DNA from: Nesterenkonia halotolerans
Lineage (GTDB): Bacteria; Actinomycetota; Actinomycetes; Actinomycetales; Micrococcaceae
Direction: 5' to 3'
DNA: 64,000 bases
Assembly (NCBI RefSeq): GCF_014874065.1
Contig: NZ_JADBEE010000001.1
Location: 868,001 to 932,000, forward strand
The notes beneath the pieces are model-generated. The model had not been told where the DNA came from and searched no databases. It saw only the letters and a list, made by a program, of their open reading frames with translations. Shown one piece after another: positions 21,154 to 47,575 of this stretch; positions within the stretch are counted from its first letter, which is position 1, and every line of letters begins with the position of its first letter. A program made the translations under genes and the position numbers.

Positions 21154-21221
21154 CCGTGCCCCTGTGCCGCTCCCCCATCCCGCATTGTGCCGGGCTGACG
21201 CGTCCCGCGTTTTACCCTGCC

Positions 21222-21296
21222 GCGTTTTACCGGGCCGAACGTGTTCTACCCGAGGGACCGTCCGGTCGGTAGACCGCGCAGCGGGTGGTAAAACGC
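21222..21296. repeat. 75-bp intergenic palindromic repeat, copy A
   Basis: Exactly 75 bp. Outer inverted repeat GCGTTTTACC (21222-21231) / GGTAAAACGC (21287-21296); inner pair TCTACC / GGTAGACC. Four TACC/GGTA cores lie at element positions 7, 26, 47 and 67, roughly 20 bp apart. It lies between the divergent dapA and DUF418 genes. An extra left end GCGTTTTACC sits 15 bp upstream at 21207-21216, so this copy has a duplicated half. Confidence 0.85.
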
Positions 21297-21393
21297 CGCG
21301 GCCGCAGAAAGAATGCAGAGTCCAGCAAAGTTTTTTCAGGTTCCGCGTCAGGTGATCTCCGGCCGACGCCCAGGAGGCAGTAGCGTACGGTCT

Positions 21394-22608
21394 GTGATCA
21401 CAGCCGGCACCGCCTCCGCACGCACTCGTCGCATCTCGGGAGTCGACGCCGCCCGCGGCCTCGCTCTGCTGGGGATGATGACCGTCCATGTGCTTCCCAC
21501 CATCTCCGAGCCCGGTCACGAGGCCACCTGGGCGGGGCTGCTCTTCACCGGGCGACCCTCGGCCCTGTTCGCCCTGCTGGCCGGCGTCGGCCTGGCGCTG
21601 CTCAGCGGCGGCGCCGGACGCGCACACTCGAAGACGCAGCTCTCCGGGGACCGCAAGGCCATCGCCGTGCGGGCGCTGATCGTGGTGCTCATCGGGCTGC
21701 TGATCGCCTATCTGGACTCCGGCGTGGCGATCATCCTGGTCCACTACGGACTGCTGTTCCTGCTCGCGATCCCGTTCCTTCGTCTGGGCGCCGTCCCGCT
21801 GTTCGCTCTCGCGGGTTTCTGGGTGGCCGCCGCCCCGGTGGCGTACTGGTGGCTGCACAATGATCTGCGCAGCAGCCTCACCCAGTTCCCCGACACCTGG
21901 AGGCTGTGGCACTCCCCCTCGCTGACCGACCTCGCGGACCCCGGTCTGCTGGGCATGGATCTCGCGCTGACCGGGTACTACCCGCTGCTGATCTGGCCCG
22001 CGTACCTCTTCGCGGGCATGGCCATCGGCCGGTTGCAGCTGCAGCGCACGGGCACGGCGCTCAAGCTCGCGGGCACGGGCCTGGTCCTCGCGCTGATCAG
22101 CTATGGCGTCCACCTGTGGATGCTCTTCCAGTCCGAGTTCATCAGCGAGCTGGCGGGCCGCTACGGCTGGTCCACCGCCGAGCTGCGCGCCGAGCTGCTG
22201 GCCGGCACCTATCAGGTTCCACTGGTGACCGAGAACGCCTGGTTCCTGCTCGCCACCCCGCATCAGGGCTCCACGATGGACCTGATCCATACCTTGGGGA
22301 CCTCGATGCTGGTGCTCGGGGTGTGTCTGCTGATCGCGGAGAAGCTGCGCTGGGTGCTGGCTCCGCTGATCGGCGCCGGGGCGATGCCACTGACGCTGTA
22401 TGTGGCTCACCTCGTGGTGCTGCATTACTGGAACGGGGCTCAGGTGCCGGAGTTCATGACCTTCCTGGCCCAGTATTCCGCCACGCAGATGATCACGATC
22501 CTGATCCTGGGCGCACTGGCGGCGGGTCTGCTGCGGTTCCTGCTGCGCCGACGCGGCCCGTTGGAGGCCCTCACGCACGCGGCAGGCAACGCCGTCGCCC
22601 GCCGCTGA
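21394..22608 (+). CDS. DUF418-family multi-pass membrane protein
   Basis: 404 aa from GTG 21394. The N-terminus RRISGVDAARGLALLGMM and the C-terminal DUF418 region (GAMPLTLYVAHLVVL) mark a heparan-alpha-glucosaminide acetyltransferase-like/DUF418 membrane protein with about 10 hydrophobic segments. Substrate unknown. The start is favoured by TAGCGT at 21381-21386, 7 nt before the GTG; an in-frame ATG at 21313 would run through most of the upstream region. The flanking gaps both contain the 75-bp repeat. Confidence 0.8.
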   Translation: MITAGTASARTRRISGVDAARGLALLGMMTVHVLPTISEPGHEATWAGLLFTGRPSALFALLAGVGLALLSGGAGRAHSKTQLSGDRKAIAVRALIVVLIGLLIAYLDSGVAIILVHYGLLFLLAIPFLRLGAVPLFALAGFWVAAAPVAYWWLHNDLRSSLTQFPDTWRLWHSPSLTDLADPGLLGMDLALTGYYPLLIWPAYLFAGMAIGRLQLQRTGTALKLAGTGLVLALISYGVHLWMLFQSEFISELAGRYGWSTAELRAELLAGTYQVPLVTENAWFLLATPHQGSTMDLIHTLGTSMLVLGVCLLIAEKLRWVLAPLIGAGAMPLTLYVAHLVVLHYWNGAQVPEFMTFLAQYSATQMITILILGALAAGLLRFLLRRRGPLEALTHAAGNAVARR

Positions 22609-22639
22609 AGTCCCCGCCCCGCCGCTCTCCCGCGCTCCC

Positions 22640-22714
22640 GCGTTTTACCCGGCCCTCCGTGGAATACCTTCCCGACGGTGTGCCCGGTAGACCACGGACG
22701 CGGGGGTAAAACGC
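22640..22714. repeat. 75-bp intergenic palindromic repeat, copy B
   Basis: Exactly 75 bp, GCGTTTTACC at 22640 and GGTAAAACGC at 22714. Inner elements are AATACC and GGTAGACC; the left inner half is the most diverged. It lies between the convergent DUF418 and galK 3' ends, so this copy could act as a terminator, unlike copies A and C. Confidence 0.85.
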
Positions 22715-22729
22715 TTGGGAGGGACCGGA

Positions 22730-23911
22730 TCAGCTGAGTCGGTGGGCGCCGGCCGAGGGCTGGGCGAGGAACCCGGTGGGCTCGGTGTAGCCGCGCTGGC
22801 GGGCATTCTCCTGCACGGCACCGAGCAGCCCGTCGAAGGAATCGGCATCGATCAGCGCGATCACGCACCCGCCGAAGCCTCCACCCACCTGTCGGGCACC
22901 GAGCGCAGGCTGTGCCCCATGATCCTGGTGCGGGGACATCAGCGTCTCGACCAGCGTGTCGGTCTCCGGGACCGTGATCTCGAAGTCATCGCGCTGCGAG
23001 GCATGGGAGGCACTGAGGATCTCACCGAGCTCGGCGTAGGCGCCGATGCTCAGCGCCTCCTTGGCGGCGAGCACACGGGTGTTCTCGGTGAGCACGTGGC
23101 GGACCCGTCGCAGAATGACCGGGTCCTCAAGCCGAGCGGCCAGGTCCTCAGGGGCGACGCCGTCGTCGTTGAGTTCGCGGAGGCTCTCGAGACCCAGCTG
23201 CCGGGCTCCGGTCTCGCACTGGGCGCGCCGGGCGGCGTACTCGCCGTCGACCAGTCGGTGTTCGGCCAGGGAGTCGATGACCAGCAGCGCGAGCCCGTCC
23301 TGCGCCAGCGTGAAGGGGACGTGTTCGATCGCCATGCTCCGGGTGTCCAGCAGCAGCGCGCGCTCGGCCTGCGCGGCGATGGACGCCATCTGATCCATGA
23401 TCCCGCAGGGCATTCCGACGAAGTCGTTCTCTGCGTGCTGGGCCAGCTGAGCCAGTTCAGCGTGGGAGAGTTCGACGCCGGCCAGTTCGGTCGCTGCCAG
23501 GCCGACGGAGCATTCCAGGGCGGCCGAGGACGACAGCCCCGCCCCGATCGGAACATCCGAATCGATGAGCAGATCCAGGCCCGGCAGCAGGTGCCCGGCC
23601 TGCTCGAGCGACCACAGCATCCCCGCGGCATAGGCGGCCCAGCCCTCGACGACGCCGGGGGCCAGCCCGTCCAGACTGAACTCGGCGGTCTCGCCGTTGA
23701 GCAGGGACCGCACATGGACGATCCGGTCGCTGCGGGGGGCGGCGGCGACCCGGCTGGTCTGCGGCAGCGCGAAGGGCAGCACGAAGCCGCCGTTGTAGTC
23801 GGTGTGCTCCCCGATCAGGTTCACCCGTCCGGGGGCCGCCCAGATCCCTGCGCTGTCCCGGCCGAAAGCCTCCTGGAAGGCGTCTGCGAGCGCGAGCTGT
23901 GCGGCACTCAT
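22730..23911 (-). CDS. galK: Galactokinase
   Basis: 393 aa GHMP kinase that phosphorylates galactose to galactose-1-phosphate. The galactokinase signature GRVNLIGEHTDYNGG is near residue 28 and the ATP-binding motif PIGAGLSSSAALE near residue 125; the C-terminal motif GGGFGGCVIAL is present. Last gene of deoR-galT-galE-galK; its ATG overlaps the galE stop by 4 bp. Confidence 0.96.
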   Translation of the reverse strand: MSAAQLALADAFQEAFGRDSAGIWAAPGRVNLIGEHTDYNGGFVLPFALPQTSRVAAAPRSDRIVHVRSLLNGETAEFSLDGLAPGVVEGWAAYAAGMLWSLEQAGHLLPGLDLLIDSDVPIGAGLSSSAALECSVGLAATELAGVELSHAELAQLAQHAENDFVGMPCGIMDQMASIAAQAERALLLDTRSMAIEHVPFTLAQDGLALLVIDSLAEHRLVDGEYAARRAQCETGARQLGLESLRELNDDGVAPEDLAARLEDPVILRRVRHVLTENTRVLAAKEALSIGAYAELGEILSASHASQRDDFEITVPETDTLVETLMSPHQDHGAQPALGARQVGGGFGGCVIALIDADSFDGLLGAVQENARQRGYTEPTGFLAQPSAGAHRLS

Positions 23912-24927
23912 GCGAGGCCTCCGGCGGAGGTGGGGGCGGTGGGCGTCGCGGTGCCCGAGCTCGCGGCGTCGGGGCTAGCGGTGTCCGAGCCCAGCGCGGT
24001 CCACGCGTCGGAGACCATCTGGCGGATGTCTCGGGTGGGCTGCCAGCCGAGGTCGTCCAGGGCGCGCTGCCCCGAGGCCACGAGCACGGCGGGGTCTCCT
24101 GCGCGGCGGGGCTCCTCCACGGCGGGGACCTCGCGTCCGGTGACCTCGCGGACGGCGTCGATGACCTGGCGCACCGAGGTGCCGGTGCCGGTGCCCAGGT
24201 TGTAGATCTCGTGGGTGCCGGGCACGGCGGCCTTCAGGGCGCGCAGGTGCGCCTCGGCGAGGTCGCGGACGTGGATGTAGTCCCGCACCGCTGTGCCGTC
24301 CTCGGTGGGGTAATCGGTGCCGAAGATGCTCGCGCTCTCCTTCTCCCCCGCGGCGACCTTCAGCAGGTTCGGGATCAGGTGGGTCTCCGGGTCGTGACGC
24401 TCGCGCAGCTCCCCGGAGGCGCCGGCGACGTTGAAGTAGCGCAGGCTGATGGCTGCCAGGCCGTGGGCGTGTGCCTCGGCGGTGAGCATGTGATCGATCG
24501 CGAGCTTCGAGGCGCCGTAGGGGTTGGTCGGCATGGTCTGATCGGTCTCGGCGATGCTGGCGCCGGCGGGCTCCCCGTAGACGGCCGCCGTGGAGGAGAA
24601 CACGAGGCGGGGCACCCCTGCCTCGCGCATCGCATCGAGCAGGGCGAGGGTGGCGACAATGTTGCCGTGCCAGTATCGCTCCGGGTGGGAGACCGATTCC
24701 CCGACCAGCGAGCGCGCGGCGAGGTGGACCACTCCGTCGAAGCTGGAGTCCAGGATGCGTCCGACCTGGAGGAGATCAGCCTCATGCCAGATCGCTCCGC
24801 CGAGGATGGAGTCGGCGTGGCCGGTGCTCAGGTTGTCCAGCACCTCCACGGTGTGGCCTTCGGCGAGCAGCTGCTGCACCACCACAGATCCGATGTATCC
24901 GGCGCCCCCGGTGACCAGCAGCTTCAT
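23908..24927 (-). CDS. galE: UDP-glucose 4-epimerase
   Basis: 339 aa extended short-chain dehydrogenase. NAD-binding GGAGYIGS is at residues 7-14, the catalytic YGASK (YxxxK) near residue 150, with SSTAAVYGEP before it. It interconverts UDP-glucose and UDP-galactose. It overlaps galT and galK by 4 bp each. The C-terminus carries a short Ala/Ser/Thr/Pro-rich tail of about 25 residues. Confidence 0.95.
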   Translation of the reverse strand: MKLLVTGGAGYIGSVVVQQLLAEGHTVEVLDNLSTGHADSILGGAIWHEADLLQVGRILDSSFDGVVHLAARSLVGESVSHPERYWHGNIVATLALLDAMREAGVPRLVFSSTAAVYGEPAGASIAETDQTMPTNPYGASKLAIDHMLTAEAHAHGLAAISLRYFNVAGASGELRERHDPETHLIPNLLKVAAGEKESASIFGTDYPTEDGTAVRDYIHVRDLAEAHLRALKAAVPGTHEIYNLGTGTGTSVRQVIDAVREVTGREVPAVEEPRRAGDPAVLVASGQRALDDLGWQPTRDIRQMVSDAWTALGSDTASPDAASSGTATPTAPTSAGGLA

Positions 24928-26180
24928 CGTGTCTCCTCTGTATGTGGTTCAGCATCTGTCGGTGGTTCAGCGTCTATCGGTGGTTCAGCGTCTGTCGATG
25001 GTTCAGCAGAATCCGCGCCGGCGGCGTCAGCGTCGGCAGACCCCGCGCCCAGGTCCACCAGCCGGCGGGCCATGTCCTCGGGTGCGATGTCATTGATGAA
25101 GACCCCCATGCCGGATTCGGAGCCGGCCAGGAACTTCAGCTTATTCTCCGCACGCCGGATGGAGAACAGCTGCAGGTGCAGCCGCATCAGTCCGGGTTCC
25201 GCGGAGGCCGGGGCCTGCTGCCAGCCGGAGATATACGGCAGCGGGCCGTCGAAGAGCTGGTCGCCGCGCTGGAGCAAGTCCAGGTAGAGCGCGGCGAAGT
25301 CATCCCGCTCGGCGCCGGTGAGCTCCGGGAGCCGCTCCACGGCGCGGTGCGGGTAGATGTGCAGCTCCACCGGCCAGCGCGCCCACGCGGGGATGAACGC
25401 GGTCCAATGCTCGGTGCGCGCCACGATCCGCCGGCCGTCCGAGACCTCCGCGGCCAGGATGTCGGCGAAGAGATCTGCACCCCGGCGCTCGCGATAGTCC
25501 GCGGCGGATTCCAGCAGGGTCCGGGTGCGCGGGGTGATGAACGGGTAGCCATAGATCTGCCCATGCGGATGATGCAGGGTCACGCCGATCTCTTCGCCGC
25601 GATTCTCGAAGCAGTAGACCTGCTCGACTCCAGGTTCGGCGAGCATCGCTTCCGAGCGGTCTGCCCAGGCGTCCACCACGGTGCGCATCCGCTCGGCGCT
25701 GACCTGGGCCAGCTGCGAGGTGTGGTCATCGGTGAAGCACACCACCTCACACCGGCCCGAGCCGTGCTGGCGGATTCCTGCGGACTCGGCGGCCGCCGTC
25801 GTCGTGCTCAGGAAGTCACCGGGGACCGGGACGTCTCCCCGGAAGGAGGGGAAGCGGTTCTCGAAGACGACGACGTCGTACTCGGCCTGTGGGACCTCGC
25901 TGGCGCGGTCTTCGGTGGTGGGGCAGAGCGGACATTGATCGGAAGAGGGCAGGTGGGTGCGGTGCTGGCGGGCCGCGGCGATGGCCACCCATTCGCGCAG
26001 CAGCGGGTCATAGCGCATCTCATTGCCACCCTCGGGCCGGGTGATCTCCCGGCGATCCTGGACGGTCCGGGTGCGCGGCGCATCGTCGAAGAAGATGATC
26101 TCGCGGCCATCGGCGAGCTGCGCACGGGACTTGTGCGCCCGCCGGTGCTGGGTTTCGGGGGCCTCGTGGGCGGTGGTCAT
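24924..26180 (-). CDS. galT: Galactose-1-phosphate uridylyltransferase
   Basis: 418 aa from ATG 26180 (GGAG 6 nt upstream). The active-site HPHGQ lies in LHHPHGQIYGYPF; zinc-site cysteines appear in CPLCPTTED. It exchanges UMP between UDP-glucose and galactose-1-phosphate. The C-terminal ~45 residues are an acidic tail with a six-residue period (DAEPPT-like) encoded by 18-bp tandem repeats at 24944-25015. Its ATG overlaps the deoR stop by 1 bp. Confidence 0.95.
   Translation of the reverse strand: MTTAHEAPETQHRRAHKSRAQLADGREIIFFDDAPRTRTVQDRREITRPEGGNEMRYDPLLREWVAIAAARQHRTHLPSSDQCPLCPTTEDRASEVPQAEYDVVVFENRFPSFRGDVPVPGDFLSTTTAAAESAGIRQHGSGRCEVVCFTDDHTSQLAQVSAERMRTVVDAWADRSEAMLAEPGVEQVYCFENRGEEIGVTLHHPHGQIYGYPFITPRTRTLLESAADYRERRGADLFADILAAEVSDGRRIVARTEHWTAFIPAWARWPVELHIYPHRAVERLPELTGAERDDFAALYLDLLQRGDQLFDGPLPYISGWQQAPASAEPGLMRLHLQLFSIRRAENKLKFLAGSESGMGVFINDIAPEDMARRLVDLGAGSADADAAGADSAEPSTDAEPPIDAEPPTDAEPHTEETR
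24944..25015. repeat. Four 18-bp tandem repeats in the 3' end of galT
   Basis: Units GTGGTTCAGCATCTGTCG-like start at 24944, 24962, 24980 and 24998. The first three differ at only 1-2 positions; the fourth is diverged. The 18-bp length keeps the reading frame, so copy-number change would only lengthen or shorten the acidic tail. Confidence 0.85.
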
Positions 26181-27028
26181 CAGGATCTCCTGGTCTCGGT
26201 GGTCTCGGCGAGGGTCAGCATCAGCTGTTCGCGCAGCTCTGCGGCGGCCGGGTCCGGGAGCCCGGTGTCGCTGATCAGCGTGTCGATCTGCGCGATCCGG
26301 GCGAAGGTGCCCAGGGCCGTGGCGCCCCATTTGGTGTGATCGGCCAGCACGACGGCGCGCGCCCCGGACTGCAGCAGGGTGCGATTGGTCTCGGCCTCCT
26401 CGAGGTTCGGCGTGGTGAACCCTGCGGCGGAGGAGAAGCCGTGGGTGCCGAGGAAGACCAGGTCCAGGTGCAGGGAGCGCAGCGCCTGATTCGCGATCGG
26501 GCCGACGAGCGCGTCGGAAGGAGTGCGCACCCCGCCGGTGAGGATCACCCTCGGGTCTGCCGCGTCCCGTGTCTGCCCAGCGGTATGGGCGTCAGTGTGA
26601 GCGTCGGCGGCGCGGTGGAAGATCGCGGCGATCCGTGGTGAGTTGGTGACCACGGTGAGCTCAGGGACGGTGAGCAGGTGATGGGCCAGGGCCCAGGTGG
26701 TGGTACCGGCCGAGAGCCCGACGGACATTCCCGGGGCGAGGAGCTCTGCCGCGGCGGCCGCGATGGCCTGCTTCTCCGGGAGCATCTGGGCGGATTTGGC
26801 CTCGAAGCCGGGCTCCTCCGTGCGACGAGCCACCGCAGCGGCGTCTGCTGCGGGAGCCACCGCACCCCCGTGGACTTTCGCGATGAGCCCCGCCTCGGCG
26901 AGGTTCTCGAGATCGCGGCGGATGGTCATATCGGAGACCTCGAAGCGCGCGGCCAGCTCCGAGACGCTGACCCCACCGGCCGATTCCAGCAGAGCGACGA
27001 TCCCAGCGCGGCGCTGAGCTGCAAGCAT
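26180..27028 (-). CDS. DeoR-family transcriptional regulator of the gal operon
   Basis: 282 aa. The N-terminal HTH (AALLESAGGVSVSELAARFEVSDMTIRRDLENLAEAG) is the DeoR signature, and the C-terminal DeoRC sugar-phosphate-sensing domain follows (VGLSAGTTTWALAHHL, LGTHGFSSAAGFTTPN). It heads the gal operon, so repression relieved by a galactose-derived sugar phosphate is the natural inference. GAGGAGG precedes the ATG. Three 10-bp direct repeats upstream (27061-27090) are a candidate operator. Confidence 0.9.
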   Translation of the reverse strand: MLAAQRRAGIVALLESAGGVSVSELAARFEVSDMTIRRDLENLAEAGLIAKVHGGAVAPAADAAAVARRTEEPGFEAKSAQMLPEKQAIAAAAAELLAPGMSVGLSAGTTTWALAHHLLTVPELTVVTNSPRIAAIFHRAADAHTDAHTAGQTRDAADPRVILTGGVRTPSDALVGPIANQALRSLHLDLVFLGTHGFSSAAGFTTPNLEEAETNRTLLQSGARAVVLADHTKWGATALGTFARIAQIDTLISDTGLPDPAAAELREQLMLTLAETTETRRS

Positions 27029-27060
27029 GGGACCTCCTCAAGACACGTGAACCCGACGAT

Positions 27061-27090
27061 CACATTCAAACACAAGTGAACACTTTCCAA
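27061..27090. promoter_or_regulatory. Three helically phased 10-bp repeats, candidate DeoR operator
   Basis: CACATTCAAA, CACAAGTGAA and CACTTTCCAA follow each other without gaps (pattern CAC-N5-AA), 33-62 bp before the deoR start. DeoR-family operators are often direct repeats spaced by one helical turn. The region is AT-richer than its surroundings. Confidence 0.55.
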
Positions 27091-27102
27091 CAGACCCTCC
27101 TG

Positions 27103-27177
27103 CCGTTTTACCCCACCTTCCGTGGTCTACCGGCCCCACCGTGTGCCCGGTAAACCAAGCCCCGCCGGGTAAAACGC
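27103..27177. repeat. 75-bp intergenic palindromic repeat, copy C
   Basis: Exactly 75 bp, CCGTTTTACC at 27103 and GGTAAAACGC at 27177, with inner GGTCTACC and GGTAAACC. It shares CCGTGG and GTGTGCCCGGTA with copy B. It lies between divergent deoR and dapB and ends 17 bp before the dapB -10 element. Confidence 0.85.
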
Positions 27178-35341: not shown

Positions 35342-35401
35342 AGGTTCCCCAGGTTACCTGTGCCGCTGAGTGATCCGGCACCTGCGTCTGGACCGGAGAG
35401 C

Positions 35402-35833
35402 TCAGCGGACCACGGAGCTCAGCAGCAGGCTGGTCTCGCTGTTGACCACGCCCTTGATCCCGCGGACCCGGCGCAGCACCTCGTCGAAGTCGCGCAGGTT
35501 CTCGCACGAGATCTCCGCGACCAGGTCCCAGCCGCCGTTGGTGGTGTGCAGGGCCATGATCTCCGGGAAGCCGCGCAGCTCCGCGATGACATGGTCGGTG
35601 GTGCGGCCCACCACCTCGATGAAGGAGATGGCGCGGACCTCCCCGGTCTCGTTGTGGTCGTGGACGCGCACGCTGAAGCCGACGATGACCCCTGCCGCCT
35701 TGAGCTTTTCGATCCGGCTGGTCACCGTGGCGCGGGCGACCCCGAGCTGTTCGGCCAGGGCCGCGACCGGAGCACGGCCGTCCTTGCGCAGCGCGGAGAT
35801 CAGGCGGCGGTCGAGGTCGGTGAGGCGAGGCAT
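35402..35833 (-). CDS. Lrp/AsnC-family transcriptional regulator
   Basis: 143 aa. HTH: LDRRLISALRKDGRAPVAALAEQLGVARATVTSRIEKL; C-terminal RAM (ligand) domain follows with GETGEVRAISFIEVVG. Start ATG 35833 gives the usual Lrp length; longer in-frame starts are less likely. Divergent from the ornithine cyclodeaminase gene, so it probably controls that operon in response to an amino acid such as ornithine, citrulline or arginine (inference). Confidence 0.9.
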   Translation of the reverse strand: MPRLTDLDRRLISALRKDGRAPVAALAEQLGVARATVTSRIEKLKAAGVIVGFSVRVHDHNETGEVRAISFIEVVGRTTDHVIAELRGFPEIMALHTTNGGWDLVAEISCENLRDFDEVLRRVRGIKGVVNSETSLLLSSVVR

Positions 35834-38062: not shown

Positions 38063-38120
38063 TAGCCGACGACGACGGCGCCCGGTCGCCCCCACCGGAG
38101 GCCCGGGTGCGGCGCTCCGG

Positions 38121-47384: not shown

Positions 47385-47459
47385 GCATCCCTGGGGCGAT
47401 TACGGGCGCCATGAAACGAATCAACGGCGTTATTCCGCCCGTTGGCGCCCCAGGGATGC
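47385..47459. repeat. REP-like hairpin 1 (75 nt)
   Basis: Outer arms GCATCCCTGGGGCG (47385-47398) and its exact complement (47446-47459); inner arms ACGGGCG (47402-47408) and CGCCCGT (47436-47442); 3x3 internal loop; 27-nt loop. Two nested perfect stems in register. Confidence 0.75.
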
Positions 47460-47493: not shown

Positions 47494-47575
47494 CCCCTCA
47501 TCGATTGGGCGGAAATCGTCGCTATGAGGCCCCGCCCGCTCCTCTTTCCGACGTTTTCTGCCCAACAGTTAGGGG
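47494..47575. repeat. REP-like hairpin 2
   Basis: Arms at 47505-47521 and 47549-47565 pair at 15 of 17 positions around a 27-nt loop. CCCCT (47494-47498) and AGGGG (47571-47575) add an outer pairing. The GGGCGGAA core resembles the inner arm of hairpin 1 (TTCCGCCC at 47433-47440). Confidence 0.65.

Follow-up and report, generated by a model that had tools for sequence, protein, structure and literature searches.

The window analyzed here is a 64,000-nt stretch of the Nesterenkonia halotolerans genome, and it carries three copies of a 73-bp palindromic element in intergenic gaps. Copy A (21223–21295) lies in the divergent gap between dapA and an acyltransferase-like gene (flanking Pfam domains DHDPS and HGSNAT_cat), copy B (22641–22713) in the convergent gap between the acyltransferase-like gene and galK, and copy C (27104–27176) in the divergent gap between a deoR-type regulator and dapB. 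These are the three repeats that an initial annotation of this DNA had reported, in gaps of the same orientations. The unit can be written as CGTTTTACC-N55-GGTAAAACG, in which TACC/GGTA cores lie further in and GACSGTC forms the centre, and one additional base at each end gives the 75-bp form. In the 73-bp frame, the TACC cores occupy positions 6–9 and 25–28 and the GGTA cores 46–49 and 65–68, with spacings of 19, 21 and 19 bp. The conserved centre GACSGTC between the arms had been missed earlier. The extra left end claimed for copy A is present as an exact outer half-site CGTTTTACC at 21208–21216 on the + strand, 15 bp before the copy. With at most 1 mismatch, CGTTTTACC had 10 matches in the window against a shuffle mean of 2.5, and 0 of 100 shuffles reached 10. 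The Rfam scan of the window showed no family at the gathering threshold, and literature searches turned up no known repeat family to which the arms could be assigned.

The element is not restricted to gal/dap genes, as had been supposed. The host genome (G000; other G numbers denote comparison genomes) contained 17 copies, all of 73 bp except one of 75 bp, and the exact outer pattern was found in 15 copies, including places elsewhere in the genome. A search with the 26 core bases, allowing ≤3 mismatches, showed that 14 of the 73-bp copies in G000 had 0 mismatches, one had 1, one had 2 and none had 3; the reversed-pattern control gave 0. A neutral decaying repeat would give a broad mismatch tail, and none was seen within 3 mismatches in G000. 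Upstream of the solo copy G000:C1:979842, about 22 bp away, there is another extra outer half-site CGTTTTACC, like that of copy A.

The exact pattern was present in 9/30 Nesterenkonia genomes and in 0/28 genomes of other genera. At ≤3 mismatches, the 73-bp form numbered 18 in G022, 16 each in G000, G020 and G011, 15 in G027, 2 in G021 and 1 in G014. A 72-bp variant with a different interior and centre was present in several species (15 in G019, 13 in G014, 12 in G002, 4 each in G010 and G007, and 1 each in G005, G006 and G027). The species-wide contig scan, in which 80 of 84 stretches were listed, gave 36 from Nesterenkonia; the other 44 were single sites of evenly spread length and were taken as chance. 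A phage origin was rejected, as only two viral contigs matched the outer pattern, with lengths of 77 and 78 and one site each.

A gene at G000:C1:989345-990628, about 94 kb from copy C and outside the window, was flanked by two 73-bp copies. This gene, with neighbours rimP and proS, is the outcome of the search for a DNA-binding protein that the initial annotation had proposed. The element at G000:C1:989338-989410 supplies the gene's C-terminal codons together with its TAA stop, and the same overlap was seen in G027, G011, G022, G021 and G020. The encoded protein was predicted to comprise an N-terminal AbiEi-type winged helix, an AbiEi/nucleotidyltransferase-like middle and a C-terminal Vsr/I-Bth0305I-like nuclease fold. 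Structure comparison by VIA-align 2 gave matches including 3r3p (I-Bth0305I) and the AbiEi-type 6y8q and 1zel, so that the predicted structure holds both the catalytic-domain fold of an EDxHD/Vsr-like homing endonuclease and an AbiEi winged-helix domain. E301, D333, E344, D346 and K350, an acidic/lysine set, were invariant in 43/43 homologues and are candidate residues of an EDxHD-type motif. Searches of NCBIfam, PHROGs and PDB sequences returned no family for the protein, and its homologues have so far been labelled only as "AbiEi family antitoxin domain" or "hypothetical protein". The TnpA_REP-type transposase, the other enzyme proposed in the initial annotation, did not appear: PF01797 (Y1, HUH) was found in 1/30 genus genomes (G006) and not in G000, and it was detected in 5/14 control genomes. 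RAYT/TnpA_REP was rejected as the enzyme, since G000 lacks PF01797 and the flanked gene has a predicted Vsr-like fold.

Homologues of the nuclease gene were found in 28/30 genus genomes. We examined 70 Nesterenkonia loci (30 returned and 40 from the upper part of the list, with weaker and fragmented places left out). Left and right flanks carried matched 72-mers with at least 45 identities at 44/70 loci; 300 pseudo-gene controls averaged 38.1 and peaked at 44. Many matched pairs were quasi-palindromes with gene-specific motifs, such as GTCCCC, TCTGCAC, GATCGTC, GTCGCA, TGTCAC and TTCCCAC. With a Cryobacterium homologue as the query, 77/198 genomes of the order matched; 29 of the best 30 loci belonged to other genera, and 25/29 reached at least 45 identities, with a chimera control outside the genus (n = 200) at mean 38.7, maximum 57 and 5 at ≥44. 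The common plan was a palindrome of about 72 bp in which each arm carried the motif two times, mostly at a distance of 19 bp, the arms mirroring each other. Among 69 matched elements, the best within-arm repeat spacing was 19 bp in about 45, with 6.13/8 matches versus 3.97 in shuffles.

Element similarity rose with that of the proteins (Mantel r 0.49, p 0.0005). At least one TACC element was carried by 11/11 genomes with a TACC-flanked homologue, and 17 of the 19 genomes without such a homologue had no TACC element, the exceptions being G014 and G006. G184, probably Actinomyces slackii (by an identical protein), had 31 complete elements of its own type, and four other genomes had none above the control. 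Judged from their distribution, the solo copies follow the cognate gene. The alignments and counts establish the pairing of gene and cognate element, the common architecture, the core conservation and the presence/absence pattern. Recognition of the palindromes by the cognate protein is strongly supported by these comparisons, from which we infer binding itself, cutting and movement. In other species of the G184 genus (L378, L382, L383 and L385), palindromes of differing wording seemed, on inspection by eye, to occupy the same intergenic place upstream of a shared gene.

Several loci showed signs of gain, loss and movement. The gene occupied differing gaps of one neighbourhood among the genomes: rimP-proS in G000, G027, G011, G022, G021 and G020; TauE-lipoprotein-like in G002 and G019; TauE-rimP in G003 and G008; and proS-lipoprotein-like in G007, G005, G010 and G026. 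The element-gene-element place of G002 and G019 corresponded to one solo element in G000, G027, G022 and G020. Copy B had orthologous copies in G027, G022 and G020. The dapB gap of copy C held the element in 5 genomes (G000 and its relatives G027, G022, G011 and G020) and lacked it in 6 (G021, G002, G012, G017, G018 and G019), the other 19 having a different upstream context. G022 retained the copy G000:C1:1923842, and G027 showed a clean absence of it between flanks 92% and 89% identical. Inspection by eye of the surroundings of 17 distinct G184 copies (19 listed places, two duplicates) showed no target-site duplication. As for an exact insertion junction in G184, 0/48 congeners aligned across one element, and the flank before the element was not conserved.

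Small palindromic intergenic units with clean presence/absence polymorphism resemble miniature inverted-repeat transposable elements (MITEs), and such MITE- or REP-type repeats could be moved by an unseen transposase with the AbiEi-nuclease gene as a passenger or a preferred insertion neighbour. We consider this very improbable. In many independent lineages, the pair of flanks carries the motif proper to the gene between them, and no Y1_Tnp was found in 29/30 genomes in a search limited to that transposase family. The gene-bearing unit here is bounded by two whole palindromes, whereas MITEs have single terminal repeats, and no target-site duplication was apparent to the eye around the G184 copies.

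We think it fairly likely that the 73-bp palindrome serves for recognition by the one protein encoded at G000:C1:989345-990628, and that this nuclease would cut or move four-site palindromes. Double-stranded DNA would be bound by four winged helices, one at each motif copy (mirrored arms with two copies each, at 19-bp spacing), and these would place the nuclease domains over the conserved centre of the palindrome. After a central cut, the element, or an element-gene-element cassette, may be lost from or copied into sites. By entering a solo element, a gene with half-elements would restore the full palindrome at both of its ends; the opposite step would leave a solo element behind. Central cutting and joining to gene-borne half-elements would thus give both the element-gene-element and the solo states. 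With its own motif in each gene lineage, many such systems could exist side by side.

AbiEi-family antitoxins bind as monomers to 23-bp promoter repeats, and one binds four repeats simultaneously (PMC7319586). The predicted fold here matches AbiEi in its winged helix and second domain, PF13338 was found in 20/43 homologues, and the several inverted repeats recall the separate monomers described there. The protein could therefore be an autoregulated AbiEi-like regulator, with the element as the operator of its own gene and the other copies as by-products. We regard this as improbable: the gene has elements before it and also beyond its stop codon, and others recur elsewhere in the genome, with solo copies in convergent gaps. 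The protein differs from type IV antitoxins in its added nuclease-fold domain, and the neighbourhood inspected around the G000 gene, between rimP and proS, showed no recognisable adjacent toxin gene such as the AbiEii nucleotidyltransferase of type IV operons.

The sequence constraint of the element also bears on its function. In 36 Nesterenkonia 73-mers (72 half-elements), G21, TACC 25–28 and C36 were invariant or nearly so and other columns were variable; the CGTTTTACC columns were also invariant, yet these were fixed by the search itself. Between syntenic copies, the differences in core and interior were 0/312 and 127/564 for G000 and G027 (12 pairs), 1/312 and 195/564 for G000 and G022 (12 pairs), and 3/104 and 82/188 for G000 and G020 (4 pairs). 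The syntenic partners came from core-based searches, and one pair (889223 and G027:844124) had barely similar interiors. A strong ascertainment effect is unlikely because 14/15 exact G000 copies had a G027 partner, the fifteenth being a clean absence.

The match of left and right arms within a copy was not above that between copies in G000, G027, G022, G020 and G184 (p 0.66–0.99) or in G002 (p 0.26). It was above it in two 72-bp sets, G019 (p 0.036) and G014 (p 0.004), perhaps from subfamilies. The G014 72-bp elements showed two outer-arm types (ATCC and CGGGC) with the same type on both sides of one copy, so that the arms covary. Since the two arms of a single copy show no covariation in the 73-bp types, selection would act on double-stranded protein sites and not on a hairpin. 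For these types, a hairpin or RNA element was rejected on the same ground and by the absence of an Rfam match at gathering thresholds in the window. The initial annotation had proposed selection on protein binding or structure; protein binding with fixed spacing is retained, and hairpin constraint is dropped for the 73-bp types, in which the constraint, as read from the alignments, is on double-stranded sites.

That solo cores persist for so long points either to a cost borne by imperfect elements as long as the nuclease is there, or to a use by the host. The protein might be a chromosome-associated regulator and the solo elements binding sites retained by the host for gene-end insulation or domain organisation, with a structural or regulatory nuclease fold. 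Orthologous solo cores are conserved over long divergence, and element positions are common to several species. By our own crude gene calls, the 79 solo copies had a median distance of 21 bp from stop codons; 38/79 lay in convergent gaps, a preferred position, and 12/79 in divergent gaps. The divergent copies bear out the earlier statement that the repeats are not simply terminators, and a terminator as the sole role was rejected because of them. We hold a site serving the host to be unlikely. The genes flanking the G000 copies were unrelated housekeeping genes with no visible regulon, for which reason a regulon operator was also rejected. The motif differs from gene to gene between families, genomes that lack the cognate gene have decayed elements or none, and the catalytic-type residues are invariant.

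A mobile pair of nuclease and palindrome is closest in working to the REPtron, that is, RAYT/TnpA_REP genes with their REP/REPIN repeats (PMC3116915, PMC3733652, PMC8266576). The REPtron likewise has usually one gene with cognate flanking palindromic repeats, many intergenic solo copies, repeat-specific gene families, and copies in convergent gaps close to stop codons. Genes flanked by cognate repeats and intergenic solo copies were both found here, although the defining enzyme of the REPtron is lacking: an AbiEi-winged-helix/Vsr-like nuclease stands in place of the HUH tyrosine transposase. The elements differ from the REP/REPIN repeats in having 72–73 bp, the motif four times, no GTAG-tagged hairpin, and 73-bp arms that do not covary within a copy. 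The system is probably REPtron-like but unrelated, with a nuclease that recognises, and probably moves, four-site palindromes.

The closest catalytic-domain fold in the structural models was that of the EDxHD/Vsr-like homing endonucleases (3r3p), of which I-Bth0305I binds as a dimer to a target of nearly 60 bp (PMC3943268). The present system differs in that no intron or intein was seen, the DNA-binding part is AbiEi-like, the gene lies between two whole palindromes with the target uninterrupted, and many intact solo copies share the genome. At the matched-pair loci, the homing arrangement, in which a gene or intron interrupts the target and the host allele is immune, was not found.

Several observations weigh against a nuclease that moves these palindromes. 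A homing gene breaks up its own target, whereas the present-day gene has an intact element on either side, and the core conservation of long-resident solo copies exceeds the need of a purely selfish repeat. The lack of visible target-site duplications in G184 counts on the same side. Only 8/29 other-genus loci exceeded every control, so that the weaker ones are less certain, and no matched pair at threshold was found in 26/70 genus loci and 4/29 other-genus loci. G014 had 13 72-bp and 1 73-bp TACC elements with no flanked gene found, and G006 had one element. The AbiEi structural match had an rmsd of 7.1, and no residue here is assigned to the H of the EDxHD motif.

A second palindrome family, CCTGGG..GTTGAGT..TCCGG, had at least 8 matches per strand in exactly the 6 genomes with a homologue so flanked (G017, G018, G020, G021, G022 and G027); the G027 gene has an internal stop. 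Elsewhere the matches per strand were 5 and 4 in G012, 2 and 1 in G000, and ≤1 in others, and no cognate gene of this family was found in G000. The window holds a decayed copy at 35357–35414 (no strand assigned) with 6/36 core mismatches, where relatives had 5 (G027), 1 (G022), 0 (G020) and 7 (G021). Alignments also showed an empty site at 38063–38064, with no copy in G000 and a second-family copy in G027 (74 extra bp), G022, G020 and G021. At G012:C14:27870-27891, a second-family arm lies inside a nuclease-gene homologue with an internal stop, as if the element had entered it. Two quasi-palindromes of 73-bp span and other sequence, at 47386–47458 and 47499–47571 of the window and 113 bp apart, are possibly a further family.

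Most intergenic palindromic repeats of bacteria are orphans or belong with HUH transposases. In the open-access literature, no paper was found that connects these proteins with such repeats, and papers beyond it may exist. With slightly more doubt than belief, we propose an undescribed class of prokaryotic selfish elements: AbiEi-winged-helix/Vsr-like nucleases that would recognise palindromes of four double-stranded sites, with a motif particular to each lineage, and for which these palindromes would be both landing sites and gene borders, with cassettes that jump between solo palindromes and leave solo copies behind. This class would be a counterpart of the REPtron built from unrelated parts, across several actinobacterial families. 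If true, many poorly annotated genes would gain a function, and families of intergenic palindromes an explanation. It would also provide a natural set of nucleases, each with a long target site legible from the flanks of its own gene, so that the code of DNA recognition and the persistence of the repeats would be directly testable.
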